From the NCBI GenBank assembly GCA_027452245.1, contig DAIDGW010000081.1, positions 1 to 64,000 of the forward strand: 64,000 nucleotides of DNA, given 5' to 3'. A program made the position numbers and the translations under genes. The DNA comes from Acidobacteriaceae bacterium (GTDB lineage Bacteria > Acidobacteriota > Terriglobia > Terriglobales > Acidobacteriaceae). Of the stretch, positions 12,788-64,000 are shown piece by piece. Position 1 is the stretch's first letter. Each line of letters opens with the position of its first letter. The notes under the pieces are model-generated. The model was given only the letters and a program-made list of their open reading frames with translations. It was not told where the DNA came from and made no database searches.

Positions 12788-14452
12788 TCAGGGTCTGGTC
12801 GTAGTAGGGGCGAACTGGTTCCTGCTTTCGTCTTTGTAACCGAAATCCAGGCCAAACTTTGGAGCTTGACGGGTTCCCGTGATCTTGAACGGCACCTCGG
12901 TTCCAGCGCCGTCCTTGGCGAAGAATGGATCGACAGCTTTCAGCAGGAATGACTTCCAGCCGGTCGTCATCTGCGAGAGCTTGGCCTGCAACTTCAACTT
13001 CCCGTGAAAATCGAAGAGATCGCCATCCAGGCTGTACTGGCCGGTGACGTTGGCGTGCGTTCCCGGCATGGAAAATTTCAAGGACGAGAACGACAAGACA
13101 CTCTTGGCAAGGCGGAAGTTGCCGGCAACGTCGGAGGCCACGTTTTTGGGCAATTCTTGCTTCGCCTGTTTCGGCTTTCCCTGGCTAATCAGGCTCATCG
13201 AGTCGATACGATCCTGGAGTTTGTCATTCGTAAAATGCGCTGCTGGAACGTGGAATCTTCCCGCCAGCGTGAGCCGGCTCACCAGGTCGCCATGGCCGGG
13301 AACGATTTCAAGATCTGTGTTCATCTCGACCGGCCCGGTCATCACGGGAGGATTGGTACGAACTCCCAGGCGCAACAGGTCTTCGATGCGAGCGTGGTCG
13401 ATCAGCACATGAAGCCTGATTTCGTGTCCGGGCACATTACCCATGCGAACCACTTTGCCGCTGGCAGTCAGCGAAGAATGCAGAAACCGGGCGCGAACGG
13501 GCTCCAGATAAGTATCGCCGTCGGTGCCATCGACGATGGCGTGAAATTCGGTGTGCAGCGGAACCGGATGGCCGCTCACGTTCAGCCGGAAGTCGGGCGT
13601 GTCGGTCTGGCCTTCAACGACAATCCGGCCAAGTGTGCCGCCGTAGTTGCCGGTCGATGACAAAATGCCGGCAATTCCCTTCAGCGTGCCCAGATTCGCG
13701 TTGGTAAAGCTATAACTGCCTTCGACCGCGGTATTACGCGGACTTCGTTCGTTGATCGGTCCAAAACGGCCGGTGGAATGGATATCACCTTTAGGTTTGG
13801 GATTAACCAAAGTGGCGTCGAACTGGAACGGGCGGCCGGGACCGATGTCTTTCATTTTGATGGTGCTAATCTGAAAATCCAGCGGCGGCTTGCCCGGACG
13901 ATTCGTGTTGATGAGGAGTTGCGTGTCATGGCAGATGAATTCATCGACCGCGATCCTCATCTTGCCATGATGGTGCAGTTCATGGACCTGTTCCTGGTCG
14001 GTTTGCTTCGGCGGAATGTTCAACGTCAGCCCATCGACGTAAACCGTGTGCACGCGCATGGGGTCGAGGAAGAGATCGCCCAGCGGAGTGGCGAAGCGGA
14101 ATTCTCTGACTTCGAGCAGGGGCTGGACCCCGGGTTGGAAGGGATTCGGATCAGCCGTGCCGTAGATCCGCAATCCTCCACCGGAGACTTCCAGTCCATT
14201 CAGGACAGAGACGTCTAGTGTGGCGAGTTCTACGCGGCTGTGGAAGCGAGTTTCCAGGCTTTCGATCACCCGGGCGCGCAGAATCGGCTCAGCGCGGTCC
14301 ATGGCCATCCGCACCGCAATCGCGGCGACGATCAGCAGGAGCAAAGATGAGCCCACGATCCATCGCCAGGGACGCCAATGACGTTTACTTTCAGGCTCTG
14401 CATCCGGGTCGGGCGGCAATGCGGTAGAACGGGTTGACGACAAGGTAGGCAC
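12788..14452 (-). CDS. AsmA-like inner-membrane-anchored protein
   Basis: 554 residues: a cytoplasmic Pro/Arg-rich N-terminus, one membrane helix (about 31-49, WIVGSSLLLLIVAAIAVRMA) and a long periplasmic beta-rich region. The segment after the helix, ILRARVIESLETRFHSRVEL followed by LDVSVLNGLEVSGGGLRIYG, is the classical AsmA/DUF748 N-terminal pattern; the C-terminal GNFRLAKSVLSFSSLKFSMP and ANVTGQYSLDGDLFDFHGKL repeat the AsmA_2-like 'GxYxLxxxxhxFxGxL' motif. Such proteins are thought to move phospholipids between membranes. It ends 15 bases from the convergent membrane protein gene and is divergent from the MFS gene. Confidence 0.82.
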   Translation of the reverse strand: MPTLSSTRSTALPPDPDAEPESKRHWRPWRWIVGSSLLLLIVAAIAVRMAMDRAEPILRARVIESLETRFHSRVELATLDVSVLNGLEVSGGGLRIYGTADPNPFQPGVQPLLEVREFRFATPLGDLFLDPMRVHTVYVDGLTLNIPPKQTDQEQVHELHHHGKMRIAVDEFICHDTQLLINTNRPGKPPLDFQISTIKMKDIGPGRPFQFDATLVNPKPKGDIHSTGRFGPINERSPRNTAVEGSYSFTNANLGTLKGIAGILSSTGNYGGTLGRIVVEGQTDTPDFRLNVSGHPVPLHTEFHAIVDGTDGDTYLEPVRARFLHSSLTASGKVVRMGNVPGHEIRLHVLIDHARIEDLLRLGVRTNPPVMTGPVEMNTDLEIVPGHGDLVSRLTLAGRFHVPAAHFTNDKLQDRIDSMSLISQGKPKQAKQELPKNVASDVAGNFRLAKSVLSFSSLKFSMPGTHANVTGQYSLDGDLFDFHGKLKLQAKLSQMTTGWKSFLLKAVDPFFAKDGAGTEVPFKITGTRQAPKFGLDFGYKDESRNQFAPTTTRP

Positions 14453-14688
14453 AGCGAATTAGTTGCTCTCACTCCGAATGCGCACAATCCGGAGATTCCT
14501 GCATGACTCAGCAACGGGGTATGCAGATGACCGGGGACTTACCCTTAATTTTACGCGCCGCACCGGGACGATTGCAGGACAACCGCCGGGGTCGATCCCG
14601 CGAGTAGCGCTAGATCCCGAAGCGGTTCCGGCCTGATTCTGCTAATCTTCTCTACTCTCTTTTTCCCTCACGATTATCGGAGCCTACG

Positions 14689-15987
14689 GTGCTAGAAGAA
14701 CAGGCCTTAACTACTGAAACCACTCTTCCTGAGCCAAGCCGGATGTATCGCTGGCTCGTACTGGTCTTCGTCAGCCTGGCGATGTTCGGCAGTTACTACG
14801 CGTATGACGCGCTGAGCCCCGTCGCCGACGTTCTCAAGCAGCAACTCGGATTCACCGACAGCGCCATCGGGTTTCTGCAGGCGATCTACAGCTTTCCCAA
14901 TATCTTCACGGTTCTGATCGGCGGCGTGATCATCGACCGGATCGGGTTGCGGAAATCGCTGATGATCTTCGGCGTTCTCTCATTCGTAGGCCCCATCATC
15001 ACAGCGACTTCGGGGCACCTTTCGGTGATGGCGACGGGCCGATTGATCTTCGGCATGGGTGCGGAATCCCTGAATGTCGCGGTGACCACGGCGCTAGCCC
15101 GGTGGTTTCGCGGAAAAGAACTGAGCTTCGCATTTGGACTCAACCTGACGGCATCGCGACTGGGAACGTTCTTCGCGCTGAACTCGCCAACCTGGGCGCC
15201 TTGGGCATTCGCAAGCTGGCGGACCCCGTTTCTCATCTCGGTAGGTTTTGCGTCGCTATGTGTCATTGGCGCGGTTATCTACTGGGGAATGGAAGTCTGG
15301 GCGGAGAAGAATTACCACCTCGGGGATATTTCGACAGAAAAGATCGTGTTCTCCGATTTGTGGAAGTTCGGCAAGAGTTATTGGCTGATTGTGGCGCTAT
15401 GCATTGTCTTTTATTCGGCGATCTTCCCCTTCCAGACCTTTGCCGTGAAGTTCTTCATGGAAGCCCATGGCACATCACGCGAGTTTGGTGGGTTCCTGTC
15501 GAGCATGCTGACATTGTTTGCCATGATTGCGACGCCGCTGTTTGGACTATGGGTGGACCGGGTGGGCAAGCGGGCGTTGCTGATGATGTTCGGCTCGATG
15601 CTGTTGATCCCCGTGTATCTGATGATGGCGTACACACATGTAAGCCTCTACGTGCCAATGGCAATGATGGGCGTGGCATTCTCGCTGATTCCCGCGGTCA
15701 TGTGGCCGTCGGTCGCGTACATCGTGGATCAGGCGAAGCTGGGAACGGCGTACGGCCTGATGACGATGATTCAAAACATCGGGTTGTTCGGTTTCAACAT
15801 CCTAGTAGGCTGGGCCAACACGTATTCCCGCGCCAATGCCACAAATCCGGCGGGCTATAACCTGGGAATGTGGATCTTTTCGTGCCTTGGTTTCCTGGGG
15901 GTGTTGTTCGCGTTCCTGCTGCGACAGCGGGAAATAGGCCCGCATGGCCATGGGCTGGAGACCATTACATCGCGCAAGGCGGCCTGA
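14689..15987 (+). CDS. MFS transporter resembling MFSD1
   Basis: 432 residues, 12 predicted helices, GTG start at 14689 (an ATG at residue 19, MYRWLVL, is an alternative). MFS motif A is seen as GGVIIDRIGLRKS after helix 2 and again as GLWVDRVGKRALL in the second half. The segment LARWFRGKELSFAFGLNLTA is strikingly like the corresponding region of eukaryotic MFSD1, which carries dipeptides. Located in the inner membrane. Substrate is unproven; a peptide carrier is the best guess. Divergent from the AsmA-like gene across 236 bases. Confidence 0.85.
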   Translation: MLEEQALTTETTLPEPSRMYRWLVLVFVSLAMFGSYYAYDALSPVADVLKQQLGFTDSAIGFLQAIYSFPNIFTVLIGGVIIDRIGLRKSLMIFGVLSFVGPIITATSGHLSVMATGRLIFGMGAESLNVAVTTALARWFRGKELSFAFGLNLTASRLGTFFALNSPTWAPWAFASWRTPFLISVGFASLCVIGAVIYWGMEVWAEKNYHLGDISTEKIVFSDLWKFGKSYWLIVALCIVFYSAIFPFQTFAVKFFMEAHGTSREFGGFLSSMLTLFAMIATPLFGLWVDRVGKRALLMMFGSMLLIPVYLMMAYTHVSLYVPMAMMGVAFSLIPAVMWPSVAYIVDQAKLGTAYGLMTMIQNIGLFGFNILVGWANTYSRANATNPAGYNLGMWIFSCLGFLGVLFAFLLRQREIGPHGHGLETITSRKAA

Positions 15988-55005: not shown

Positions 55006-56487
55006 TCAGCCGGCGGAATTTTCCGTAGGAACAGAGTCTGAGGCTTCTTCATCGCCCGGCAGCAAGTCGAATTTCTTGAGCTTGTAGCGCAAAGCGTCGC
55101 GGCTGATATCGAGCAGGCGCGCGGCGTGCGTCTGATTGCCATTCGCCTGGCGCATGGCAAGCTCCACCATGGCGCGCTCCACTTCTTCAAGCGAAGTTCC
55201 TTCCTCCGGGATGTAAAGGCGTGGAAGGGTGCGCCCATTGGCCAGTTGGCGAGAACCGGAATCACCGGAAGTGCTGCTGTGCTCGAAGGCGGTTAATCCA
55301 CTGCGGGCCGCTTCGCCGACGGCAAAGGGCATATAAACCGGGCGCAAGATCGGCTCATCCTCAAGAATCATGGCGCGCTCGATCGAATTCTTGAGCTCAC
55401 GCACATTTCCCGGCCAGTTGTGGGCCAGCAGCAAACGCCTGGTTTCGGGCGTAATGCCGCGCACCGCTTTTTTGAACTTGCGGTTATAGCGCTCAATGAA
55501 GAAATCAACGAGTGGCAGAATGTCTTCATTTCTCTCGCGGAGCGGAGGAATGAAAATCGCGATGATCGCCAGCCGGTAATACAGATCCTGGCGGAACTGC
55601 CCTTCGCGGACGGCTTTCTCGAGGTCGCGGTTGGATGCCGCAATCACGCGCACATCCACCTGCATGTCGCGCACGCCGCCCACGCGCCGGATTACCTGAT
55701 CTTCCAGGACGCGCAGCAGCTTGGCTTGCAGCAGTGGTGAAAGCTCGCCGATCTCGTCCAGAAACAACGTGCCGCCGTCGGCTGTTTCGAAGAGGCCCTT
55801 CTTCATCTGCTTGGCATCGGTGAAGGCTCCCTTTTCATGGCCGAACAATTCAGCCTCCATCAGGGTCTCCGGGATGGCCGAGCAGTTGATGGCTACAAAC
55901 GGACTGTTCTGGCGCGTGCTCTCGTAATGAATCGCCTTCGCAACGAGATCTTTGCCAGTGCCACTCTCGCCCTGAATCAGAATCGTCGTCGCCTCGCTGG
56001 CGGCGACTTTGCGGACAAAATTCAGCAACTCGGTCATCTTCGGCGAAACCGCGACAACCTCATGGTAGCCGGTGCGGCGACGGACCTCGCCGCGCAAGTT
56101 CTGAACTTCGCTGCGCAAGCGATTGGTTTCGAGGGCGTTTTGAATCGTTACACGGAGTTCGTCGAAATCCAGCGGCTTGCCGATGAAGTCGTACGCTCCC
56201 AATTTGAGCGCGCTCTTAACGTCGTCCAGTTGGGGATCGGCAGTGATCATGATGACCTGCCGGGCATCACCGTTCTTTCTCAGTTGTTCGAGAACTTGCA
56301 GCCCATTGAGGTCCGGAAGGCGGACATCGAGCAGGATCAGGTCAGGGGTTTCGTGCTGTGCTAAGCGTAATCCGGGTTCACCCGCGGCGGCCTCAACTAC
56401 CTGGTATCCCCATTCTTCACACTTCTGCCGGAGCGACCAGCGGACGAGCCGCTCGTCGTCCACAATCAAGATTTTCTCTACAGGCAT
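55006..56487 (-). CDS. Sigma-54-dependent NtrC-family response regulator
   Basis: 493 residues. Receiver domain 1-120: D10, D11, phospho-acceptor D54 (LILLDVRLPD), T82, K104. Sigma-54 AAA+ domain: Walker A GESGTGKD (173-180), the sigma-54 contact loop GAFTDA (220-225; canonical GAFTGA, so G to D), Walker B GGTLFLDEIGELSPLLQAK, RIAASNRDLEKAV-like arginine region. C-terminal Fis-type helix-turn-helix (ANGNQTHAARLLDISRDALR). Activates sigma-54 promoters; its partner is the histidine kinase just upstream. Confidence 0.95.
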   Translation of the reverse strand: MPVEKILIVDDERLVRWSLRQKCEEWGYQVVEAAAGEPGLRLAQHETPDLILLDVRLPDLNGLQVLEQLRKNGDARQVIMITADPQLDDVKSALKLGAYDFIGKPLDFDELRVTIQNALETNRLRSEVQNLRGEVRRRTGYHEVVAVSPKMTELLNFVRKVAASEATTILIQGESGTGKDLVAKAIHYESTRQNSPFVAINCSAIPETLMEAELFGHEKGAFTDAKQMKKGLFETADGGTLFLDEIGELSPLLQAKLLRVLEDQVIRRVGGVRDMQVDVRVIAASNRDLEKAVREGQFRQDLYYRLAIIAIFIPPLRERNEDILPLVDFFIERYNRKFKKAVRGITPETRRLLLAHNWPGNVRELKNSIERAMILEDEPILRPVYMPFAVGEAARSGLTAFEHSSTSGDSGSRQLANGRTLPRLYIPEEGTSLEEVERAMVELAMRQANGNQTHAARLLDISRDALRYKLKKFDLLPGDEEASDSVPTENSAG

Positions 56488-56550: not shown

Positions 56551-57795
56551 CTATAGCGCCTGCTTCGCAGGCGAACGCTCGATCGGCAGAAGCACGGTGA
56601 AGGTAGTCCCACGGCCCAGTCCGCTGACAACCTGTATCCTCCCTTGATGATCTTCGACAATGCGGCGCGCCAGGGATAATCCGAGTCCGGTCCCATCACC
56701 TTTGGTCGTGAAGAAGGGGCGGAAGATGTTCGGCAGGTTTTCCGGCGCAATGCCTCGCCCATTATCCGCCACTTCAATCACCGCATATTCCTTCTGGCGC
56801 CGCAGATTGACGGCGACCTTACCCTCGCCATCAATGGCCTGCATGGCATTGAGCAATAGGTTCAGAAGAACTTGATGCATCTGGTCGCTGTCATGTTCGA
56901 TTTCCGGCAGCGAAGGATCTTTGCTCAAACTGATCTCGATATGTCTTGTGACAGCCTGTTGGCGCCCCAGCATCACGGCATGTTCGACGGTCGTATTCAA
57001 GTCGCTTTTGCTGACATTCGGGGGGTGTGGGCGCGCGGTTTGCAGCAGGTCCGTCACAATCTGGTTGATGCGTGCAATCTCCTGCCGCACATCTTTAACC
57101 ACGCTCCGCGCCGGGCTGGAAGTGGGGAGGTCGCGCCCAATGATTTCGATGACTCCGGCAATTCCGGCGAGAGGGTTGCGAATCTCATGCGCCAGTCCAG
57201 TCGCCAGCTCTCCCAAGGTCGCCAGATGTTCTGCGCGGGACATCTGCGTCCGGTGCAATTCTTCAATCTCACGCTGGTTCTCACGAATCTGCGCCACCAT
57301 GTGGTTGAAATTGCGGCCGAGATCGCCAATTTCGTCATTGCGCTGGGAGAAACTGACGGAGACATCCAGATTGCCTTCGCCGAGTTGCGCAATTTTCTGC
57401 TGCAATTCGACCATGGGCCGCTGGATCATGTAGGTGAGAACGACCAGCAACGCGCCGCAGATTGCCACCGCGCCGGCACCCGCAACGAACAGTACGGTGT
57501 GCCGCTCGGGATCGCGCCAGGAGAGGGTTGCCAAAAGGAACAGCAGCATGCCGCCCAGCAAAACACTGGCAATCGGCATCAGAGCCTTGATTTCCCAGTT
57601 GATACGGAACGAGGAAGCGTCTTCCCCGGCCGCGTGCTCGTTCCCCACAGAAGTTTCGCCCAATGGATCCACCACCCCGTCCCAACGTCTGTACTCATCC
57701 CGCGTTTCGACGACAGAATCCGAAGCTACGACCAAATCCATCTTCGAGCGCCCATCGGACTTCGATTTCAGCGTGACAGACTCAGGCATATGCAT
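56551..57795 (-). CDS. HAMP-containing sensor histidine kinase without a periplasmic sensor domain
   Basis: 414 residues; ATG 57793-57795 overlaps the ccsA stop by 14 bases. Cytoplasmic N-terminal 70 residues with no known domain; two helices (71-92, 100-124) joined by only about seven residues, so there is no periplasmic sensor; HAMP (about 125-178); HisKA with H203 in GLAHEIRNPLAGI; HATPase_c with NAMQAIDGEGK, DNGRGIAPENL and TKGDGTGLGLSLAR. NtrB-like. Probably phosphorylates the sigma-54 regulator encoded next. The signal could be membrane state, redox or the unusual N-terminus. Confidence 0.93.
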   Translation of the reverse strand: MHMPESVTLKSKSDGRSKMDLVVASDSVVETRDEYRRWDGVVDPLGETSVGNEHAAGEDASSFRINWEIKALMPIASVLLGGMLLFLLATLSWRDPERHTVLFVAGAGAVAICGALLVVLTYMIQRPMVELQQKIAQLGEGNLDVSVSFSQRNDEIGDLGRNFNHMVAQIRENQREIEELHRTQMSRAEHLATLGELATGLAHEIRNPLAGIAGVIEIIGRDLPTSSPARSVVKDVRQEIARINQIVTDLLQTARPHPPNVSKSDLNTTVEHAVMLGRQQAVTRHIEISLSKDPSLPEIEHDSDQMHQVLLNLLLNAMQAIDGEGKVAVNLRRQKEYAVIEVADNGRGIAPENLPNIFRPFFTTKGDGTGLGLSLARRIVEDHQGRIQVVSGLGRGTTFTVLLPIERSPAKQAL

Positions 57796-59179
57796 GCAAT
57801 CCCGGAAGCAGGTAAGTTACTCCGAAGAAAGTAAACATCACTACCGCGAAGCCCAGAATTGCGAAGTAGGCCGCCCTGCGTCCCCGCCACCCGCGAGTAA
57901 TGCGCATGTGTAGATAGCCGGCGTATATCAACCATGTAATCGCGGCCCATGTTTCCTTAGGATCCCAGCTCCAATACGAGCCCCAAGCCCGGTTCGCCCA
58001 GTAGGCGCCTGCGGCAATCATGAGGGTTAATAGGGGGAAGGCTACACAAATCGTCTTGTAGGTCAGCCGGTCAAGCGCATCGGCATCGGGCAGCAATCGT
58101 TCCAGGTCCGTCCGGCGCCAGAGCAGGAGCAGATAGAGCAGGTTGGCGAAGATTCCCCCGACTAACCCGGAGAGGATAAACGGACTTGCGGCTAGACTGG
58201 TGGCGTAGACACCATCGGCATCAAGTGACGAATACTGTCCATTGTTGGCTCGAAGTAGAAAAAAGGCGAGGGCTAAAATCTGCAGAAGGATACTCACAAA
58301 CACAGCTCGGTTTGCAGTGGCGAGAAAGCCTTCATCCTTTTTCCACACTCCCAGTGCATAGAGAGCGAGGGGCGCCAACGTGGCGGCAAAGACGATGACC
58401 ATGAGCCAGCCCAGGTCGGGGATGGTCACAAACAGCCTCACACCGCGCGAGAGAAATACTTCGGTTCGGTTTTCTGCATCCCAGGCGATCACGCTCAGTC
58501 CGCCCCATTTCTCGAAGCGGCTCAGGATTGCTGCGTAGATACCCGCCGTAAACAGGCTGGTTCCGGCGAGAAATGTCTCGGTTTGGACCTTGTCCTGGAT
58601 GAGAAACATCATGGAGAGTGCGAAACTCAGAGCGCATGCCGCGTAGGCCAGCATGGCCAGACTGACGTGCACATGCAGCCATGTCGATTGCAATGCAGGA
58701 ACCAGTGGCCGGACATCTGTGCGCAGTAACTGCATCAGCACCACGCCGACAATCGCTACCGGCATGGTCACGGTGCCGATGACTTTCACTCCATAGACTT
58801 TTTCGGCAACCAGCGTGAGAGCAGCCAGAGTCCATACAAACATCAAAAGCATTTCATAGAGGCTGGCGAATGGCGGGTGTCCTGCTTCATACCAGCGGTG
58901 CAGAACCGCGCCGGTGTTGGCGAGCAGCCCTGCCCATGTGGCAAAGGACGCAAACTTCACGTAGGACTCATTGGCGGTCACGCCGAAGCCGAGATATAGG
59001 GCTCCCGCCCCTGCATAAAAAATCAGTGAGGCATACAGCAGGTTGGCTTCGTTGAGGACATTACCCGACTTCACCACGTTCAAGAACGCCATGAACAGAA
59101 GAAAAGCAATGCCCAGTCCCACGAGCACAACCAGTGTGCTGCCGGTCGAGGGTTGCTGCTCTGCTCTTGCTCGCGCCAT
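57782..59179 (-). CDS. ccsA: Cytochrome c biogenesis protein CcsA/ResC
   Basis: 465 residues, about 10-12 helices, ATG preceded by AAGGAGA. The CcsA signature WDPKETWAAITWLIYAGYLH (the WWD-like region; here GSYWSWDPKETWA) is near the C-terminus, with SLYEMLLMFVWTLAALTLVAEK and conserved heme-handling His in HVHVSLAMLAYAAC and YAGYLHMRITRGW. Inner-membrane partner of ResB in system II cytochrome c maturation. 20 bases after resB. Confidence 0.95.
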   Translation of the reverse strand: MARARAEQQPSTGSTLVVLVGLGIAFLLFMAFLNVVKSGNVLNEANLLYASLIFYAGAGALYLGFGVTANESYVKFASFATWAGLLANTGAVLHRWYEAGHPPFASLYEMLLMFVWTLAALTLVAEKVYGVKVIGTVTMPVAIVGVVLMQLLRTDVRPLVPALQSTWLHVHVSLAMLAYAACALSFALSMMFLIQDKVQTETFLAGTSLFTAGIYAAILSRFEKWGGLSVIAWDAENRTEVFLSRGVRLFVTIPDLGWLMVIVFAATLAPLALYALGVWKKDEGFLATANRAVFVSILLQILALAFFLLRANNGQYSSLDADGVYATSLAASPFILSGLVGGIFANLLYLLLLWRRTDLERLLPDADALDRLTYKTICVAFPLLTLMIAAGAYWANRAWGSYWSWDPKETWAAITWLIYAGYLHMRITRGWRGRRAAYFAILGFAVVMFTFFGVTYLLPGLHAYA

Positions 59180-59199: not shown

Positions 59200-60654
59200 C
59201 TATTTCCCGGCGATCTGTGCGGTCCGTACGGATCGCGTGGCCCTAGCCTGGGCGGGTAGTTCTTTTTTGATTTCCGCTACCAGCTTTTCGAATTTGTGTT
59301 CAAACGCGTCACGGTTACGATTGGCTGCTCCGCCGATCCAAAGTGTGATCGCGCCCGTATCTGCGTCGTGCACCGGCACAACCCAGTAGCGCTGGTGCAC
59401 GATGTAGAACACGAAACTGAGGCCGATGGCCATCAGAATGACTCCAGCCCAGACGGCCCACTGCCCGGGCTCATGGGAAACCTGCAGTCCGGTGTAGTAA
59501 CCGGTCTTCAGATCCTTCGGGTCGAACGTGTAGGGCGACGCCGCATTCTCGGCGAAACCAGGAATTTCCGGGAACCAGACATTCACCGCTTTCTTTGTTT
59601 TTTGCGACGTGACAACCAGGTGCACGGCAGGGTTCTGAACATCGTTGCTACGCGTGTAAACGTGGCCGTCCTGCACCACGTAGTCGGGAATGAATTCGGT
59701 CATTTCGACCGAGGTATCCGCGTCCAGCACAACCGGCTGGTTCATGGCCAGTGAAATTTCTCTGGGTTGAGCTTTGGGATCGTTCGCTGGAGTGACATTC
59801 AGAATCAAGCGATCGATCTTGCCCGTGCGTCCATAGCTCGCCTGGTAGAAGCGCACTCCTCGATAGACCATTGGATCGTTAACCGAGATTTCTTTGCGCG
59901 CAACGTCCCGTCCATTTTTGACAACGGCTAACTTGGACCACCAGCGCTTGGGGCTTCCGTCGGCGTAAATTTCTTCCCCGGTCCCATCGCAGCGGAGTTC
60001 GAACGGCATGGTGCGCGTCGCCCCGGTTCGCAGTTCCACTGCACTCGTTTGGCTGCCGGGGGTCAGCATGATAAAGCCACGCCATCCCCAGAGCGCGTCA
60101 ACGATGCCGCCCAGAAAGATCAACAGTAGACTTGCGTGGACGATATACACCGCCATCTCGGAGACACGATGACGCTCGGAAAACAACGAAAAACTCTGGG
60201 GACGCACAATCCGCTCAGCCCTCAATCCCATCTTGCGGAATGCCCGCTCTGCCGCGCTTAAACCCTGCTCTTCCTGCAGGATCGGAATGCTGACCTGTGT
60301 GGCAAGAACCCTGCGGAAGCTGGCGTCCGGGCTCTTATAAGGACGCGCATAGTAGCGCCAGGAATTCGGGAAGCGCTCGATTGACGCGGCAATAATGCTC
60401 AAACTGACTAGCAGCAGCAGCGCGATAAACCAGCGCGTGTGATAGACGTCAGTCAGTCCGGTGAAATCGAGGAAGCGCAGCATGTCGGGAGAGTAGGCGC
60501 GCTGCATGTCATCGGGATCGGTCATCGGACGCTGCAAAATCACGGTGCCGGCGGCCGAAAAGATCACGACCAGGATAATCAGGACGACGCCAGTCTTGAT
60601 CGAACTCAAAGTCTGCCAAACTTTCCGCGGAGCCGATCCAAGTGTCAGGGCCAT
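59200..60654 (-). CDS. resB: Cytochrome c biogenesis protein ResB
   Basis: 484 residues; ATG at 60652-60654 with AGAGGAAG just before. N-terminal helices (KTGVVLIILVVIFSAAGTVI and TRWFIALLLLVSLSIIAASI), a conserved FMLTPG-like loop (GWRGFIMLTPGSQTSAVELR), a periplasmic beta domain and a last helix VWAGVILMAIGLSFVFYIVH. Hydrophilic tail with DTGAITLWIGGAANRNRDAF. Works with CcsA in attaching heme to apocytochromes. Divergent from the multiheme cytochrome gene, which needs this machinery. Confidence 0.94.
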   Translation of the reverse strand: MALTLGSAPRKVWQTLSSIKTGVVLIILVVIFSAAGTVILQRPMTDPDDMQRAYSPDMLRFLDFTGLTDVYHTRWFIALLLLVSLSIIAASIERFPNSWRYYARPYKSPDASFRRVLATQVSIPILQEEQGLSAAERAFRKMGLRAERIVRPQSFSLFSERHRVSEMAVYIVHASLLLIFLGGIVDALWGWRGFIMLTPGSQTSAVELRTGATRTMPFELRCDGTGEEIYADGSPKRWWSKLAVVKNGRDVARKEISVNDPMVYRGVRFYQASYGRTGKIDRLILNVTPANDPKAQPREISLAMNQPVVLDADTSVEMTEFIPDYVVQDGHVYTRSNDVQNPAVHLVVTSQKTKKAVNVWFPEIPGFAENAASPYTFDPKDLKTGYYTGLQVSHEPGQWAVWAGVILMAIGLSFVFYIVHQRYWVVPVHDADTGAITLWIGGAANRNRDAFEHKFEKLVAEIKKELPAQARATRSVRTAQIAGK

Positions 60655-60804
60655 ATCTTCCTCTTCGATCTTGCTTATGCATTTCCCGCGCCACTTACGG
60701 ACAACCCGCTAAAGTCATTGCTGCTCAATAGGATTGCCGGATGCTCCCGAACTCCCCCATCTGCTTTCTGAGCCATAACACTCATTCAAAAAGCGGTGAG
60801 GCTG

Positions 60805-60820
60805 TGATTTCACCCACAAA
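60805..60820 (+). promoter_or_regulatory. CRP/FNR-family-like site 1
   Basis: TGTGATTTCACCCACA: TGTGA-N6-CCACA, one mismatch to the CRP consensus palindrome TGTGA-N6-TCACA. Shares GTGATTTCA with the two other elements. Confidence 0.55.
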
Positions 60821-60828
60821 AATGTTTG

Positions 60829-60844
60829 TGATTTCAATCACATA
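60829..60844 (+). promoter_or_regulatory. CRP/FNR-family-like site 2 (perfect palindrome)
   Basis: TGTGATTTCAATCACA: an exact TGTGA-N6-TCACA palindrome, 24 bases after site 1. It could be bound by a CRP-family regulator; which one is unknown, and FNR-type TTGAT-N4-ATCAA is not present. Confidence 0.65.
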
Positions 60845-60857
60845 CCGGAGTTGACCC

Positions 60858-60902
60858 ACTGGTTTTTCTCCCATCCTCTAATGGGTGATTTCACCAGTGG
60901 CA
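60858..60902 (+). promoter_or_regulatory. Third GTGATTTCA element inside an inverted repeat
   Basis: CCACTGGT (60858-60865) pairs with ACCAGTGG (60895-60902). Between and within lies GGTGATTTCACC (60886-60897), a 12-base palindrome carrying the third GTGATTTCA (60887-60895). The right half of the CRP consensus is absent, so this may be a weaker or different operator. Confidence 0.5.
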
Positions 60903-61069
60903 ATGTGGCAGAAAGCCCATTTTGGTGCGGAAAGAAATGTTGTGCGGAAAATCTCAACACAATCGCGGCGCAAGCAAGAACTGTAATTTCTTGAACTTAC
61001 AACCGCATTCCAAGTCAAGCACGTGGTGGAGGAAGTTAGGCGAGGCTCTTGCACTTGCACTCCATAGCC

Positions 61070-62599
61070 ATGGTGCCAATCGTCCACAAACGATCGACCT
61101 TCGCCTCCAGGCGCGCAGCCCTCCCCAGGTTGTCTTACCTGCTCACGGTCGTGCTCCTGTTCGGCGCTTCGGCTTTCGCGAAGATTCATCCGGTCCCGCT
61201 CGATAAAAACGTCGACTCGGCGAAGTGCCTGGAGTGTCACGAGGATAAGGGTAAAGGCAAATTCGTGCATTCGGCGATTGCGACGGGATGCATGAGTTGT
61301 CACGAAGTGCGGGTTAACCGTGATGTCACCCGCGTGAAACTGATCACGACCACCACGCAGGCGCTGTGCCTGAGCTGCCATGACGATAAGAAGGTGCAGC
61401 CGGGACAAACGATGCATCCTCCGGCGGTGCGCGATTGCGTGAAATGCCACGACCCGCACGAGTCGGATTTTCCCAACCATCTGCTGAAGGCCGAAGTCGG
61501 CGACACGAGCAAAGACAACCTCTGCCTGCAATGCCACAACATCGGCGTGAACGTTCCCAAAGGCGGCAGCCGGCACGCCGCTCTCGATATGGGATGCGAT
61601 ACCTGCCACCTGACTCACAAGAATGGCGATCCGGAAAAGATCGAATTTGCAGCGCACCTGAAGAAAGGTGTTCCTGCACTTTGCGTCGATTGCCACGATG
61701 TGAAAGACGCCGATCTGCAAAAGGCGCACCAGGGACAACCGTTTGGAACCGCCAACTGCGTGCAGTGCCACAACCCGCACCAGTCGGACAAACCGAAGCT
61801 GATGCAGGCATTCCTGCACAATCCCTTCGAGAACAAGATGTGCGATTCCTGCCATCAGCCGGCAAAGGATGGCAAAGTCGTCCTGACGAATACCGACAGC
61901 CGTGCTCTCTGCCTTACCTGCCACTCCGATAAAGGAGAGGAAATCGACAAGGCGAAGGTGCAGCATCCGGGTGCGCAGGGCGAGTGCATCGCGTGCCACA
62001 ACCCGCACGCCGGAAAAACGCCGGGGTTCCTGCAACCCGATCCGGTCCGGGCATGCCTGGCCTGCCATACCGACCAGGCCGACCAGATGAAGAAAGCAGT
62101 CTTGCATCAGCCGGCTTTCAAACAGGGCTGCGCCACCTGCCACACGCCGCATGGCGGTGACAACGATCACCTGCTGCGCACGGCCAACATCAACAAGCTC
62201 TGCCTGGAATGCCATGGGCCGGATGCGAACCCGCAGAAGCTCGAGAGCGAGCATCTGGTCACGATCTTCAACGGACAGGTAAAGCTGCCGGAAGACTACT
62301 TCCGCAAAGTGATTCTCCTGCCAATTCAGTACGGACACGGACACCCGGTGGATCGTCATCCAGTGACCGACATCATGGATCCGACCGATGTCAATAAGGT
62401 CCTGAAGCCGATCAACTGCCTGACCTGCCATCAACCGCACTCCGGAGCGTACGCCGGAATGCTGGTGAAGGATCAACAGAACAACATGGCGTTCTGCATG
62501 ACCTGCCACTCGAACATGGTGCAGGGACCGCAGGGCGGAGCGGCGCAGAGCCAGCCGCAAAAGGCCGCGCCGCCAGCGCAAAGCGGGAAACCAAAATGA
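61070..62599 (+). CDS. Sixteen-heme c-type cytochrome, exported
   Basis: 509 residues from ATG 61070 (a TTG at 61049 would add seven). Signal peptide LPRLSYLLTVVLLFGASAFA. Sixteen CxxCH motifs are visible: CLECH, CMSCH, CLSCH, CVKCH, CLQCH, CDTCH, CVDCH, CVQCH, CDSCH, CLTCH, CIACH, CLACH, CATCH, CLECH, CLTCH, CMTCH. Several continue as CxxCHxPH (for example CVKCHDPH, CIACHNPH, CATCHTPH), the doubled-motif pattern of DmsE/NrfB-like multiheme families that gives closely stacked hemes. Length and heme density suit an electron-conducting periplasmic or extracellular protein. Overlaps the NHL gene by four bases. Confidence 0.92.
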   Translation: MVPIVHKRSTFASRRAALPRLSYLLTVVLLFGASAFAKIHPVPLDKNVDSAKCLECHEDKGKGKFVHSAIATGCMSCHEVRVNRDVTRVKLITTTTQALCLSCHDDKKVQPGQTMHPPAVRDCVKCHDPHESDFPNHLLKAEVGDTSKDNLCLQCHNIGVNVPKGGSRHAALDMGCDTCHLTHKNGDPEKIEFAAHLKKGVPALCVDCHDVKDADLQKAHQGQPFGTANCVQCHNPHQSDKPKLMQAFLHNPFENKMCDSCHQPAKDGKVVLTNTDSRALCLTCHSDKGEEIDKAKVQHPGAQGECIACHNPHAGKTPGFLQPDPVRACLACHTDQADQMKKAVLHQPAFKQGCATCHTPHGGDNDHLLRTANINKLCLECHGPDANPQKLESEHLVTIFNGQVKLPEDYFRKVILLPIQYGHGHPVDRHPVTDIMDPTDVNKVLKPINCLTCHQPHSGAYAGMLVKDQQNNMAFCMTCHSNMVQGPQGGAAQSQPQKAAPPAQSGKPK

Positions 62600-63882
62600 T
62601 GAAGCGCGGATACATACACGGCTGGTTTCGAATCGCGGCAATGCTGGGCACAGTGGCGCTCTGCCTGAGCCTGGCCACGGCTCTGCACGCAGAAAAGAAA
62701 AAGAAAAAAACACAAGAGGCTCCCGCACAAAAGAACATTCTGCAAGAAATTGATTACTCGAAACTGGTGTGGCCGAATCCTCCGGCTCCGACGCGAGTCA
62801 AGTACCTGAATTACTTCTGCTGCGATAAGTACAATCCAGCGCCTGCAAAGAAGAAGTCTTCGTGGATGGATCGCATGGCGGGCGCCGAGAGCGCCGACCA
62901 GAAGCAGATCAACAAGCCGCTGTTCGCGCTCTGGACTCCTTACGGCCTGGCCGTCGATTCAAAAGGCAACGTCTATGTTGCCGACGGAAAAGTCGGCGCA
63001 GTGTTCATCTTCAACACGGAAACCAAAGACTTGAAGATGATCAAAAACGGGAACGATGCCCACTTCGGCGACATCATCGGATTGGCCATTGATGATTCCG
63101 ACCGCCTCTTCGTCTCCGACACCCGGCTGCACCGCATCGTGGTCTTCGACAAAGACCACAAGATCGAAGGCTCGATCAGCGGGGGCCTGATCGATCCGGC
63201 AGGAATGGCGATTGATAACGAGAATCGCTTCCTTTATGTAGCCGATGCCGGTCTCGACCAGGTTCTGGTCTACGACGCCGACAAACTGACGCTGATCCGC
63301 AAGATGGGGACAGCGGGCAAAAAGCATTCCCTGACGGAACCGGGGCAATTCGCGGCTCCTGAAGATGTGGCCGTCGACAGCGACGGAAACCTGTACGTCA
63401 CCGATATGTTCAACAACCGCGTCGAGATCTTCGATGCGGACGGCAACTTCATCCGCGCCTGGGGCCAGCAAGGCGACCGCCCGGGATATTTCTCGCGGCC
63501 CAAAGGCATTGCGATTGATTCCGATGGCCACGTCTGGGTGGCCGACGGCATGTTGGACATCCTGCAGTGCTACACGCCGGAAGGGCAATTCCTCATGTGG
63601 ATGGGCGGACACGGATTGTTCCCGGGTCAGTTCCGGGCACTGGCCGGACTCTACATCGATAAAAACGACCGCATTTTCACCTCGGAGCAGTACCCAGGCC
63701 GAGTGCAGATGTTCCGCTACTTCACCGATGACGATGCGCGGGCGCAGATCAAAGAGCGCCTGGCAGAGATCGACAAGAAAAGGGCGCAGCAGGCAAAGAC
63801 GCCCACGACGGCAGACAGCAAGCCAGAGACAGCGGCTCCGGCAGCGCCGTCAACGAATTCTGCGGCTCCAAAGCCGCAATAG
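62596..63882 (+). CDS. Exported NHL-repeat beta-propeller protein
   Basis: 428 residues. ATG 62596 overlaps the cytochrome stop (ATGATGA); an ATG at 62599 is also possible. Signal peptide (AAMLGTVALCLSLATALHA) and a lysine run. At about 58-75 comes WPNPPAPTRVKYLNYFCC, a motif I associate with six-bladed propellers near multiheme cytochromes. NHL blades: LWTPYGLAVDSKGNVYVADG, LIDPAGMAIDNENRFLYVAD, FAAPEDVAVDSDGNLYVTDM, FSRPKGIAIDSDGHVWVADG, FRALAGLYIDKNDRIFTSEQ. The C-terminal 60 residues are Ala/Lys/Pro-rich. Likely a scaffold or interaction partner of the cytochrome. Confidence 0.9.
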   Translation: MMKRGYIHGWFRIAAMLGTVALCLSLATALHAEKKKKKTQEAPAQKNILQEIDYSKLVWPNPPAPTRVKYLNYFCCDKYNPAPAKKKSSWMDRMAGAESADQKQINKPLFALWTPYGLAVDSKGNVYVADGKVGAVFIFNTETKDLKMIKNGNDAHFGDIIGLAIDDSDRLFVSDTRLHRIVVFDKDHKIEGSISGGLIDPAGMAIDNENRFLYVADAGLDQVLVYDADKLTLIRKMGTAGKKHSLTEPGQFAAPEDVAVDSDGNLYVTDMFNNRVEIFDADGNFIRAWGQQGDRPGYFSRPKGIAIDSDGHVWVADGMLDILQCYTPEGQFLMWMGGHGLFPGQFRALAGLYIDKNDRIFTSEQYPGRVQMFRYFTDDDARAQIKERLAEIDKKRAQQAKTPTTADSKPETAAPAAPSTNSAAPKPQ

Positions 63883-63909
63883 AGTTTGGCCGTTCCGCGG
63901 ATGGCCAAA
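63861..63909 (+). other. Two consecutive hairpins after the NHL gene
   Basis: TGCGGCT / AGCCGCA (63861-63867 and 63872-63878; four-base loop) overlaps the last codons, and TTTGGCC / GGCCAAA (63885-63891 and 63903-63909) follows. No U-tract behind either, so they may stabilise or attenuate the operon message before the next gene. Confidence 0.5.
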
Positions 63910-63969
63910 ACCGGGGCTGGCGCAAGCTGGCTCCGGAGTTCGAGAGAAGTCGCTGTAACAGCTGTTACT

Positions 63970-63976
63970 AAGGAGG
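63970..63976 (+). promoter_or_regulatory. Ribosome-binding site of the gene at the right edge
   Basis: AAGGAGG, the full anti-Shine-Dalgarno complement, 12 bases before the ATG at 63989. It establishes the truncated next gene. Confidence 0.85.
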
Positions 63977-63988
63977 CTTCAAACTTTT

Positions 63989-64000
63989 ATGAAAAAGCTA
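63989..64000 (+). CDS. Start of a further gene (MKKL..., runs off the right edge)
   Basis: Only four codons (Met-Lys-Lys-Leu) are visible, preceded by AAGGAGG. The basic start is what one expects of a signal peptide. Its position behind the multiheme cytochrome and NHL genes, on the same strand after 106 bases, suggests a third component of the same locus, for example another cytochrome or an outer-membrane channel; this cannot be checked from the window. Confidence 0.6.

Follow-up and report, generated by a model that had tools for sequence, protein, structure and literature searches.

The 64,000-nt stretch analysed here (the window; contig DAIDGW010000081.1 of an Acidobacteriaceae bacterium, assembly GCA_027452245.1) ends inside a row of eight genes that very probably encodes an outer-membrane electron conduit, as judged from sequences and structure models. 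The reading favoured for the row as a whole, and considered probable, is a conduit of Uet-like make with an OmcE-type cytochrome filament that would be held by an 11-heme protein. The row continues past the window edge on the same contig (C81; 95,138 bases, numbered as the window; its bases 60001-80000 were used as L002, in which a position plus 60,000 gives the window coordinate) to about 72,396. It comprises, in this order, the genes for a 16-heme cytochrome, an NHL β-propeller protein (NHL1), a tetraheme cytochrome, a peptidyl-prolyl isomerase (PPIase), a β-barrel protein of 642 amino acids (aa), a second NHL protein (NHL2), the 11-heme cytochrome, and a second tetraheme cytochrome. Four adjacent gene pairs overlap by 4-19 bases and the gaps before the first and second tetraheme genes are short (about 106 and 146 bases, respectively), so that the row is likely to be one transcript, an apparent operon. 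As in porin-cytochrome systems in general, a barrel, by its predicted fold, is encoded together with multiheme cytochromes that would serve either side of it. By its gene content the row, as a conduit, is a variant of this known type, like the published Uet system, with the 16-heme protein in place of trihemes.

No Pfam or NCBIfam model matches the barrel protein (66235-68163, outside the window) at E up to 0.01. Its AlphaFold2 model, based on 41 sequences, has a predicted local distance difference test score (pLDDT) of 78.6 and contains 28 long strands, as counted from the listed elements; the C-terminal residue is Phe. The best match to the model in the PDB by Foldseek was MtrB (6r2q_B; E 5.1e-9, TM 0.47). 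The same chain ranked top with VIA-align 2 (Z 15.1, root-mean-square deviation 5.8, 460 aligned, 9% identity), the runner-up scoring 13.5. As many unrelated barrels reach 12 to 13 with this program and the identity to MtrB is 9-10%, the match backs the fold and not descent; the model supports a predicted 28-stranded barrel with an MtrB-like fold. In the cross-phylum loci described below, 50 open reading frames (ORFs) of the kind of about 670 aa that ends in Phe are related to the barrels of the genome's own family (hereafter the family) by profile (hhalign 97.8%, E 9e-13, 347 columns).

In the window itself, a first-pass annotation made from the sequence had described an exported 16-heme cytochrome translationally coupled to an NHL propeller protein, a third gene behind a full Shine-Dalgarno sequence, and divergent genes for system II cytochrome c maturation, all of which was borne out. 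The ORF called from a TTG at 61049 (61049-62599, plus strand; 516 aa) contains exactly 16 CxxCH motifs, which take up all 32 cysteines and five of which are CxxCHxPH. The in-frame ATG at 61070 is the likelier start (gene at 61070-62599) and would be followed by a signal peptide ending in ...GASAFA, as read from the sequence. The stop codon shares 4 bases (62596-62599) with the start of NHL1 (62596-63882, plus strand; Pfam NHL, E 8e-29). Behind NHL1, the Shine-Dalgarno sequence AAGGAGG (63970-63976, plus strand, read from the sequence) precedes the ATG of the first tetraheme gene (63989-65005, plus strand), the first 12 bases of which (63989-64000) lie in the window. The genes of ResB (59200-60654, minus strand; Pfam ResB, E 2e-78) and of the CcsA-type cytochrome c assembly protein (57782-59179, minus strand; Pfam Cytochrom_C_asm, E 2e-48) run divergently from the 16-heme gene.

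Residues 230-398 of the 16-heme protein match chain 6r2q_A (phmmer, E 6e-17), which we take to be MtrA of the Mtr complex, the molecule name listed for the entry being odd. The Pfam model of MtrC/MtrF domain II/IV is matched above its cut-off of 30 by both the 16-heme (50.8) and the 11-heme protein (61.0). The NCBIfam OmcA/MtrC model stays far under its cut-off on the 16-heme protein (51.5 vs 209) and is not listed for the 11-heme protein. The count of 16 motifs is conserved in 37 of the 38 relatives in which the gene was covered, the exception (L057) being clipped at the edge of the fetched stretch, and is therefore not due to chance. Lipobox counts in the family (0/39 NHL1 and 3/42 NHL2 proteins) leave the location of the propellers unsettled.

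The link with nanowires comes from the tetrahemes. A profile of 45 tetraheme sequences, among them the two of the row (A4), matched the PDB entry 7tfs at E 2.2e-45, 9yuq_N at 2.4e-42, and OmcS at 5e-9; 7TFS has been identified as OmcE (PMC12954529). Entry 9yuq, second for this profile and top for the profile restricted to the family, is a putative multiheme cytochrome of 218 aa with 16 chains per entry. This profile evidence equates the wider tetraheme family with the nanowire family of OmcE, to which the window's own tetraheme is tied by profile only. Against a profile of cross-phylum tetrahemes, the free tetrahemes of the family were all reported (40/40 at a loose limit) with a median of 62.7 bits and a lowest score of 10.5 bits (E 1.5); the two of the row reached 53.4 and 50.1 bits, and shuffled sequences up to 28.6. 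In profile-profile comparisons, the family tetrahemes aligned with the cross-phylum tetrahemes (99.5%, E 8e-23, 135 columns) and with the family 11-heme proteins (99.6%, E 5e-25, 205 columns), and less well with the pentahemes (86%, 5e-6, 27 columns) and the 16-heme proteins (31%, 5e-4). A pattern of eight His is present in 37/38 family and 54/61 cross-phylum tetrahemes and is at most compatible with OmcE-type heme ligation across subunits. Whether the tetraheme forms filaments is judged, from its sequence relationships, to be evenly balanced.

The second line of evidence is the 11-heme cytochrome (69239-71158, outside the window), an exported protein by its signal, with 11 CxxCH motifs and one CxxxCH, the latter invariant in 40 family sequences. 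Its profile (A3) matched OmcE (E 6.5e-44) and 9yuq_N (1.4e-35) over the first 211 of 582 positions, and the cross-phylum tetraheme profile spans 172 columns of the 11-heme profile. When the N-terminal domain was scored with a profile of 60 cross-phylum tetrahemes, it reached at least 119 bits in 80/80 cross-phylum proteins and at least 113 in 40/40 family proteins; the maximum among 200 shuffles that keep the heme motifs was 13.6. The domain begins before residue 120 in 75/80 cross-phylum proteins, and among the other five a long extension was seen in L143. Sequence comparison thus shows the N-terminal 200 or so residues to be an OmcE-like tetraheme domain. In the genome as a whole, three OmcE-like domains were detected at E up to 1e-5, namely, both tetrahemes and the 11-heme N-terminus, and each of four other carrier genomes has a free and a fused copy, one of them with an additional partial match. 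As the domain is found in 80/80 loci, the 11-heme protein could be the base of a filament, and docking of the filament on it is suggested tentatively, at somewhat less than an even chance. In the A3 alignment (23 sequences), 14 invariant His occur besides the 12 invariant His of the heme motifs, two more than bis-His ligation needs; such spare ligands could serve a subunit interface.

A third feature singles out the tetraheme gene. A hairpin with a T-run was looked for in the 140 bases after each stop codon, the expectation being derived from composition shuffles. Such a hairpin lies 3' of the first tetraheme gene (65020-65043, terminator-like, outside the window, between this gene and that of the PPIase) and was found after the tetraheme gene in 32/41 family loci, with 1.4 expected. 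The same scan gave 3/38 for the 16-heme gene, 2/39 for NHL1, 0/41 for PPIase, 7/41 for the barrel, 0/40 for NHL2, and 3/40 for the 11-heme gene. A G-rich/C-rich stem with a T-run could be aligned in 37 of 38 hairpins (L044 being left out); the motif is missing in 3/41 family loci, one of which (L072) has a hairpin without T-run. Across phyla, a hairpin follows 23/61 tetraheme genes vs 24/421 other genes, and the stem sequences differ among loci of several phyla. A same-strand gene is present within 700 bases downstream of 60/61 cross-phylum tetraheme genes. A general terminator scan of the region as a whole gave no excess (11 found vs 12.6 expected). Partial termination or 3' protection at the hairpin would favour the tetraheme over the conduit, as for a filament subunit.

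The barrel is present in 47/150 family genomes (31/79 genera, own genome included) and was not found in 103. Besides the own genome, 46 matched, and 37 of these (all but G002, G037, G055, G071, G078, G081, G107, G113, and G122) supplied 40 stretches chosen by the barrel; a barrel-size ORF on either strand at up to 12 kb counted as present. All 40 loci have the genes for tetraheme, PPIase, barrel, and 11-heme protein; NHL2 occurs in 39, 16-heme and NHL1 in 38 each, and resB and ccsA in 22 each. The 16-heme or NHL1 gene is missed at contig ends or fetch edges (L034, L066, L057), and NHL2 elsewhere (L065). Tetraheme, PPIase, barrel, NHL2, and 11-heme genes follow one another in a steady order, tetraheme-PPIase-barrel-11-heme being kept in 40/40 loci; in six (L049, L055, L057, L060, L061, L063), the 16-heme gene is placed after the 11-heme gene and not before the tetraheme gene. 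All 39 relatives' 11-heme proteins examined have 11 heme motifs (39/39). BLAST identities to the row's own proteins are 28-37% for the barrel, 32-55% for the tetraheme, 45-59% for PPIase, 47-62% for the 11-heme protein, 46-66% for NHL1, 57-70% for NHL2, and 51-71% for the 16-heme protein. The barrel and the tetraheme, the proposed exposed parts, thus change fastest. The first-pass annotation had proposed an electron conduit and named two checks, whether an outer-membrane barrel is encoded downstream and whether the cytochrome-NHL pair is conserved. The predicted barrel two genes past its third gene and the presence of each gene of the pair in 38/40 related loci support such a role, which stays a proposed one.

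Similar gene sets also occur beyond the family. An 11-heme profile (A2) picked out 27/396 phylum genomes, the own one among them, at a limit of E 1e-60, and an NHL2 homologue adjoins the 11-heme gene in 21/21 annotated phylum loci (L080-L100; L101 and L102 were left out). A scan of named genomes with A3 gave 515 relatives, the best 80 of which, mostly from metagenome-assembled genomes (MAGs), were used as the cross-phylum set. Among the groups in the record titles of these 80 are Nitrospirae, Verrucomicrobia, Planctomycetota, Bacteroidota, Chlorobiota/Ignavibacteria, Calditrichota, Zixibacteria, Neomarinimicrobiota, Desulfobacterota groups, and Proteobacteria; loci L103 and L182 are titled Acidobacteria, L182 having the gene order of the row. 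Among these best 80, a tetraheme of this protein family is within reach in 57 and an NHL gene in 76. Where 7 kb or more of upstream sequence was available (49 loci), a tetraheme was found in 45, two or more NHL genes in 43, a non-heme ORF of 590-800 aa in 47, and another multiheme gene in 49. By eye, the commonest order is tetraheme, NHL, pentaheme or larger cytochrome, an ORF of about 670 aa ending in Phe, NHL, and 11-heme. Culturable carriers in this set are, for example, Carboxylicivirga marina N1Y132 (L144) and Desulforhopalus sp. IMCC35007 (L114), both with genes for the tetraheme, a barrel-size ORF, and the 11-heme protein at the locus. No match resulted when plasmids were searched with the 11-heme protein.

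Closer relatives of OmcE were studied in the family of a Geobacteraceae-named MAG (L157); A4 has matches in 41/76 of its genomes at a limit of E 1e-25. With 61 match rows used for the partner count (four short, free rows and all weaker ones being left out), a free tetraheme lies within 15 kb of 18 of the 22 long (fused) matches listed; G599 is without a listed partner. In six free-tetraheme loci (L262-L267), four of the proteins are 44-52% identical to 7tfs and a fifth 40%, the sixth not being compared. These loci have the order resB, ccsA, 9-heme, 8-heme, NHL, tetraheme, NHL, and an ORF of roughly 750 aa ending in Phe, with an extra 543-aa ORF in L262. Close relatives of a proven filament protein are thus encoded in clusters of the same kinds of parts as the window locus. 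The roughly 750-aa ORF was considered as a homologue of the conduit barrel; it has a barrel-like look, and homology is unsupported (hhalign 24% and 34%). The 9-heme and 8-heme genes stand where the window has one 16-heme gene, which suggests fusion or fission.

Several described systems come close to the row. The Uet system of Tenderiales and Gallionella consists of the undecaheme UetJ (11 or 12 motifs), the extracellular tetraheme UetA, the PPIase UetB, the barrel UetC, the three periplasmic trihemes UetDEG, and the NHL proteins UetHI (PMC10734462). Set against this description, the row has an undecaheme for UetJ, a tetraheme with the conserved His pattern for UetA, a PPIase for UetB, a barrel for UetC, and two NHL proteins for UetHI; it differs in having a 16-heme protein paired with NHL1 where Uet has trihemes, and a second tetraheme. 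No gene with three CxxCH was found among the row genes, and the row is therefore called Uet-like and not filed as Uet. With MtrCAB/MtoAB it has in common the MtrB-like barrel fold, the MtrA-like stretch in the 16-heme protein, and the MtrC/MtrF Pfam domain in the 16- and 11-heme proteins, whereas it has 28 predicted strands, 16 and not 10 hemes, NHL and PPIase partners, and a score below cut-off on the OmcA/MtrC NCBIfam model. The OmcE clusters share the tetraheme family, by profile, and resB, ccsA, multiheme, and NHL neighbours, whereas the window's tetraheme is about 100 aa longer, divergent, and accompanied by an undecaheme unseen in the six OmcE-like loci.

Oet (OetABI) of syntrophic sulfate reducers, with OmcS/OmcX, likewise combines a conduit with a putative cytochrome filament; by description its cytochromes are others, and the parts of that report drawn on mention neither propeller nor undecaheme (PMC10553843). 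Verrucomicrobial clusters in which a novel porin adjoins multiheme cytochrome genes have been proposed to serve humic respiration and differ, again by description, in their octaheme periplasmic protein (PMC5615132). A conduit group centred on an undecaheme was reported from cave MAGs, 21/36 conduit-bearing MAGs being Gammaproteobacteria or Acidobacteriota; nanowires were stated there as not investigated (PMC13264449). In Geoalkalibacter, NHL genes share a locus with homologues of OmcE and MtoA (PMC12016550). In the literature searched, which did not extend to the primary Uet and OmcE papers, neither an OmcE-like domain of an undecaheme nor a docking proposal was found. As far as these searches reach, the link of the tetraheme with the OmcE family, the OmcE-like domain of the 11-heme protein, the tetraheme-specific hairpin, and the resB-ccsA-cytochrome-NHL-tetraheme-NHL clusters of OmcE relatives seem to be new.

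In the favoured reading, periplasmic electrons would be taken up by the 16-heme cytochrome, which has an MtrA-like stretch and is presumably periplasmic, and be passed on through the predicted MtrB-like barrel, into which its hemes would be inserted. The 11-heme cytochrome, presumably at the outer surface as in Uet, would receive them there. The free tetrahemes would form an OmcE-type filament, and the 11-heme protein may hold its first subunit through the OmcE-like domain. The two propellers may hold the cytochromes at the barrel; the PPIase would assist folding and ResB/CcsA heme attachment. The hairpin behind the tetraheme gene would lead to more tetraheme than conduit, and a Crp/Fnr-type regulator, perhaps sensing oxygen or energy state, may switch the row on. 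As for direction, we lean towards export of electrons to acceptors outside the cell, for instance Fe(III) or humics. The most specific form of this idea makes the 11-heme protein the base plate of the nanowire, its fused OmcE-like domain acting as a permanent first subunit from which over-produced free tetrahemes polymerise; it is put forward as a conjecture, slightly more guarded than docking itself.

A plain porin-cytochrome conduit comes close to an even chance. Its tetrahemes would carry electrons as monomers, in solution or bound to the surface, and the 11-heme protein would owe its OmcE-like domain to old common descent instead of docking. Filament formation is not predictable from sequence, and physiological evidence for cytochrome filaments as conduits has been reported to be lacking (PMC11077965). 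Several results of the present analysis likewise weigh against a filament held by the 11-heme protein. The window's own tetraheme is divergent: a phmmer search with it gave no OmcE match, AlphaFold modelled it poorly (pLDDT 57), Foldseek found nothing similar to the model, and a profile of 34 family tetrahemes alone found 9yuq_N at E 2.8e-9, with OmcE absent at E up to 1. The weakest family tetraheme falls below the shuffle maximum on the tetraheme profile, on which the row's 16-heme protein, by its repeated heme motifs, outscores the row's own tetrahemes with 93.7 bits. The cross-phylum tetraheme profile also aligns to the pentahemes (98.6%, E 1e-15, 35 columns) and to the 16-heme family (95.3%, E 2e-8, 41 columns), so that short heme stretches alone can score high. 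In a small tree of OmcE-like domains, the N-domains of the family fail to group with those of the cross-phylum proteins, and a single origin of the fusion is thus not demonstrated. No 11-heme gene was found in the 17-19 kb examined at the six OmcE-like loci, which means that OmcE-type proteins do not need such a partner. No acceptor or inner-membrane partner was identified, no systematic search having been made. What speaks for a filament over monomeric carriers is the tetraheme-specific hairpin in many loci, the sharing of clusters by free tetraheme and fused domain (18/22 fused proteins in the L157 family and 4/4 other genomes), and the resB, ccsA, and NHL genes that OmcE-like clusters have in common with the window.

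The conduit might also work in the inward direction, with Fe(II), Mn, or a cathode as the electron donor; such uptake has been proposed for Uet of Ca. Tenderia and Gallionella. The description of Uet comes from an order that oxidises cathodes, and Fe(II) oxidisers have the system too (PMC10734462); UetJ occurs in Leptothrix relatives, where it is listed as a putative iron oxidase (PMC13386937). Uptake is nevertheless held to be unlikely here: the Crp/Fnr-type sites that the row has in common with genes for pyruvate:ferredoxin oxidoreductase, phosphofructokinase, and FTR1 hint, weakly, at oxygen-limited heterotrophy, and the carriers include Desulforhopalus sp. IMCC35007 and C. marina. Service to a fixed extracellular redox enzyme or a non-respiratory task, such as a reduction like that of dimethyl sulfoxide (DMSO) or detoxification, is improbable. 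The 16-heme protein does come near the cut-off of the DmsE-family decaheme model (175 bits vs 192), and DMSO reduction uses a similar system (PMC13264449), but the only Pfam oxidoreductase matches among the eight row proteins are those to cytochromes. That the CxxCH genes stand together by chance or that the contig is misassembled is scarcely conceivable; the assembly is a draft of 274 contigs, but the tetraheme-PPIase-barrel-11-heme order in all 40 loci from 37 other genomes rules this out.

The passage of electrons between cytochrome filaments and the cell interior is not well understood in Geobacter (PMC10553843). A subunit of a filament family and a surface cytochrome with the same domain, encoded in one row, provide a concrete and testable docking model. 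The base plate, if true, would be a general bacterial way of joining a nanowire to the outer membrane, the kit being present in loci of at least 10 phyla by record titles, mostly of MAGs. The row points to extracellular respiration in this Acidobacteriota family and to culturable carriers in other phyla.

The first-pass annotation had called the locus regulated, which gains support from a perfect Crp/Fnr-type palindrome, TGTGATTTCAATCACA (60827-60842), between resB and the 16-heme gene, with an imperfect copy, TGTGATTTCACCCACA, at about 60803-60818. Exact TGTGATNNNNATCACA sites number 17 in the genome; C81 has three close to the row (60827, 72551, and 76648), the second (72551-72566) lying outside the window past the second tetraheme gene. 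With one mismatch allowed there are 57 sites, and the backward control gave none. Exact GTGAN6TCAC within 510 bp around the 16-heme start was present in 16/39 loci, own included, vs 92/2000 random windows of the same loci. Genes near other palindromes encode pyruvate:ferredoxin oxidoreductase, a monoheme cytochrome, an FTR1 iron permease, and a cytochrome c assembly protein; the phosphofructokinase gene is near a one-mismatch site, and some sites lie inside ORFs or without a nearby start. The set fits a low-oxygen regulon without proving one. The genome has eight matches to the cNMP-binding domain, and a Crp-domain gene on C117 is close to a one-mismatch palindrome. About 290 bases past a perfect palindrome on C172, an exported 458-aa protein with one CxxCH near its N-terminus and no Pfam family is encoded (L218:5217-6593); we take it to be reminiscent of Cyc2-like cytochrome-porins. 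A sigma-70-type promoter scan gave one site, inside the row, fewer than chance, and the best upstream sigma-54 sites had 3 mismatches on the plus and 2 on the minus strand.

The remaining row genes are those of the PPIase (PpiC/SurA-type; about 65066-66238, called from a TTG at 65018), NHL2 (68145-69242), and the second tetraheme (71305-72396; 69% identical to the first), all outside the window. Beyond ccsA, on the minus strand, lie a histidine kinase gene (56551-57795; Pfam HisKA, HAMP) and that of a sigma-54 response regulator (55006-56487; Pfam Sigma54_activat, Response_reg). On the other side, two large facing proteins without Pfam family (L002:12638-14170 and 14198-15727) adjoin the row and have homologues beside it in several relatives. 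They are followed by two related divergent genes (L002:15690-17417; TPR-like by eye) with the perfect palindrome at C81:76648 between them; homologues of these genes are found near the row in many relatives.

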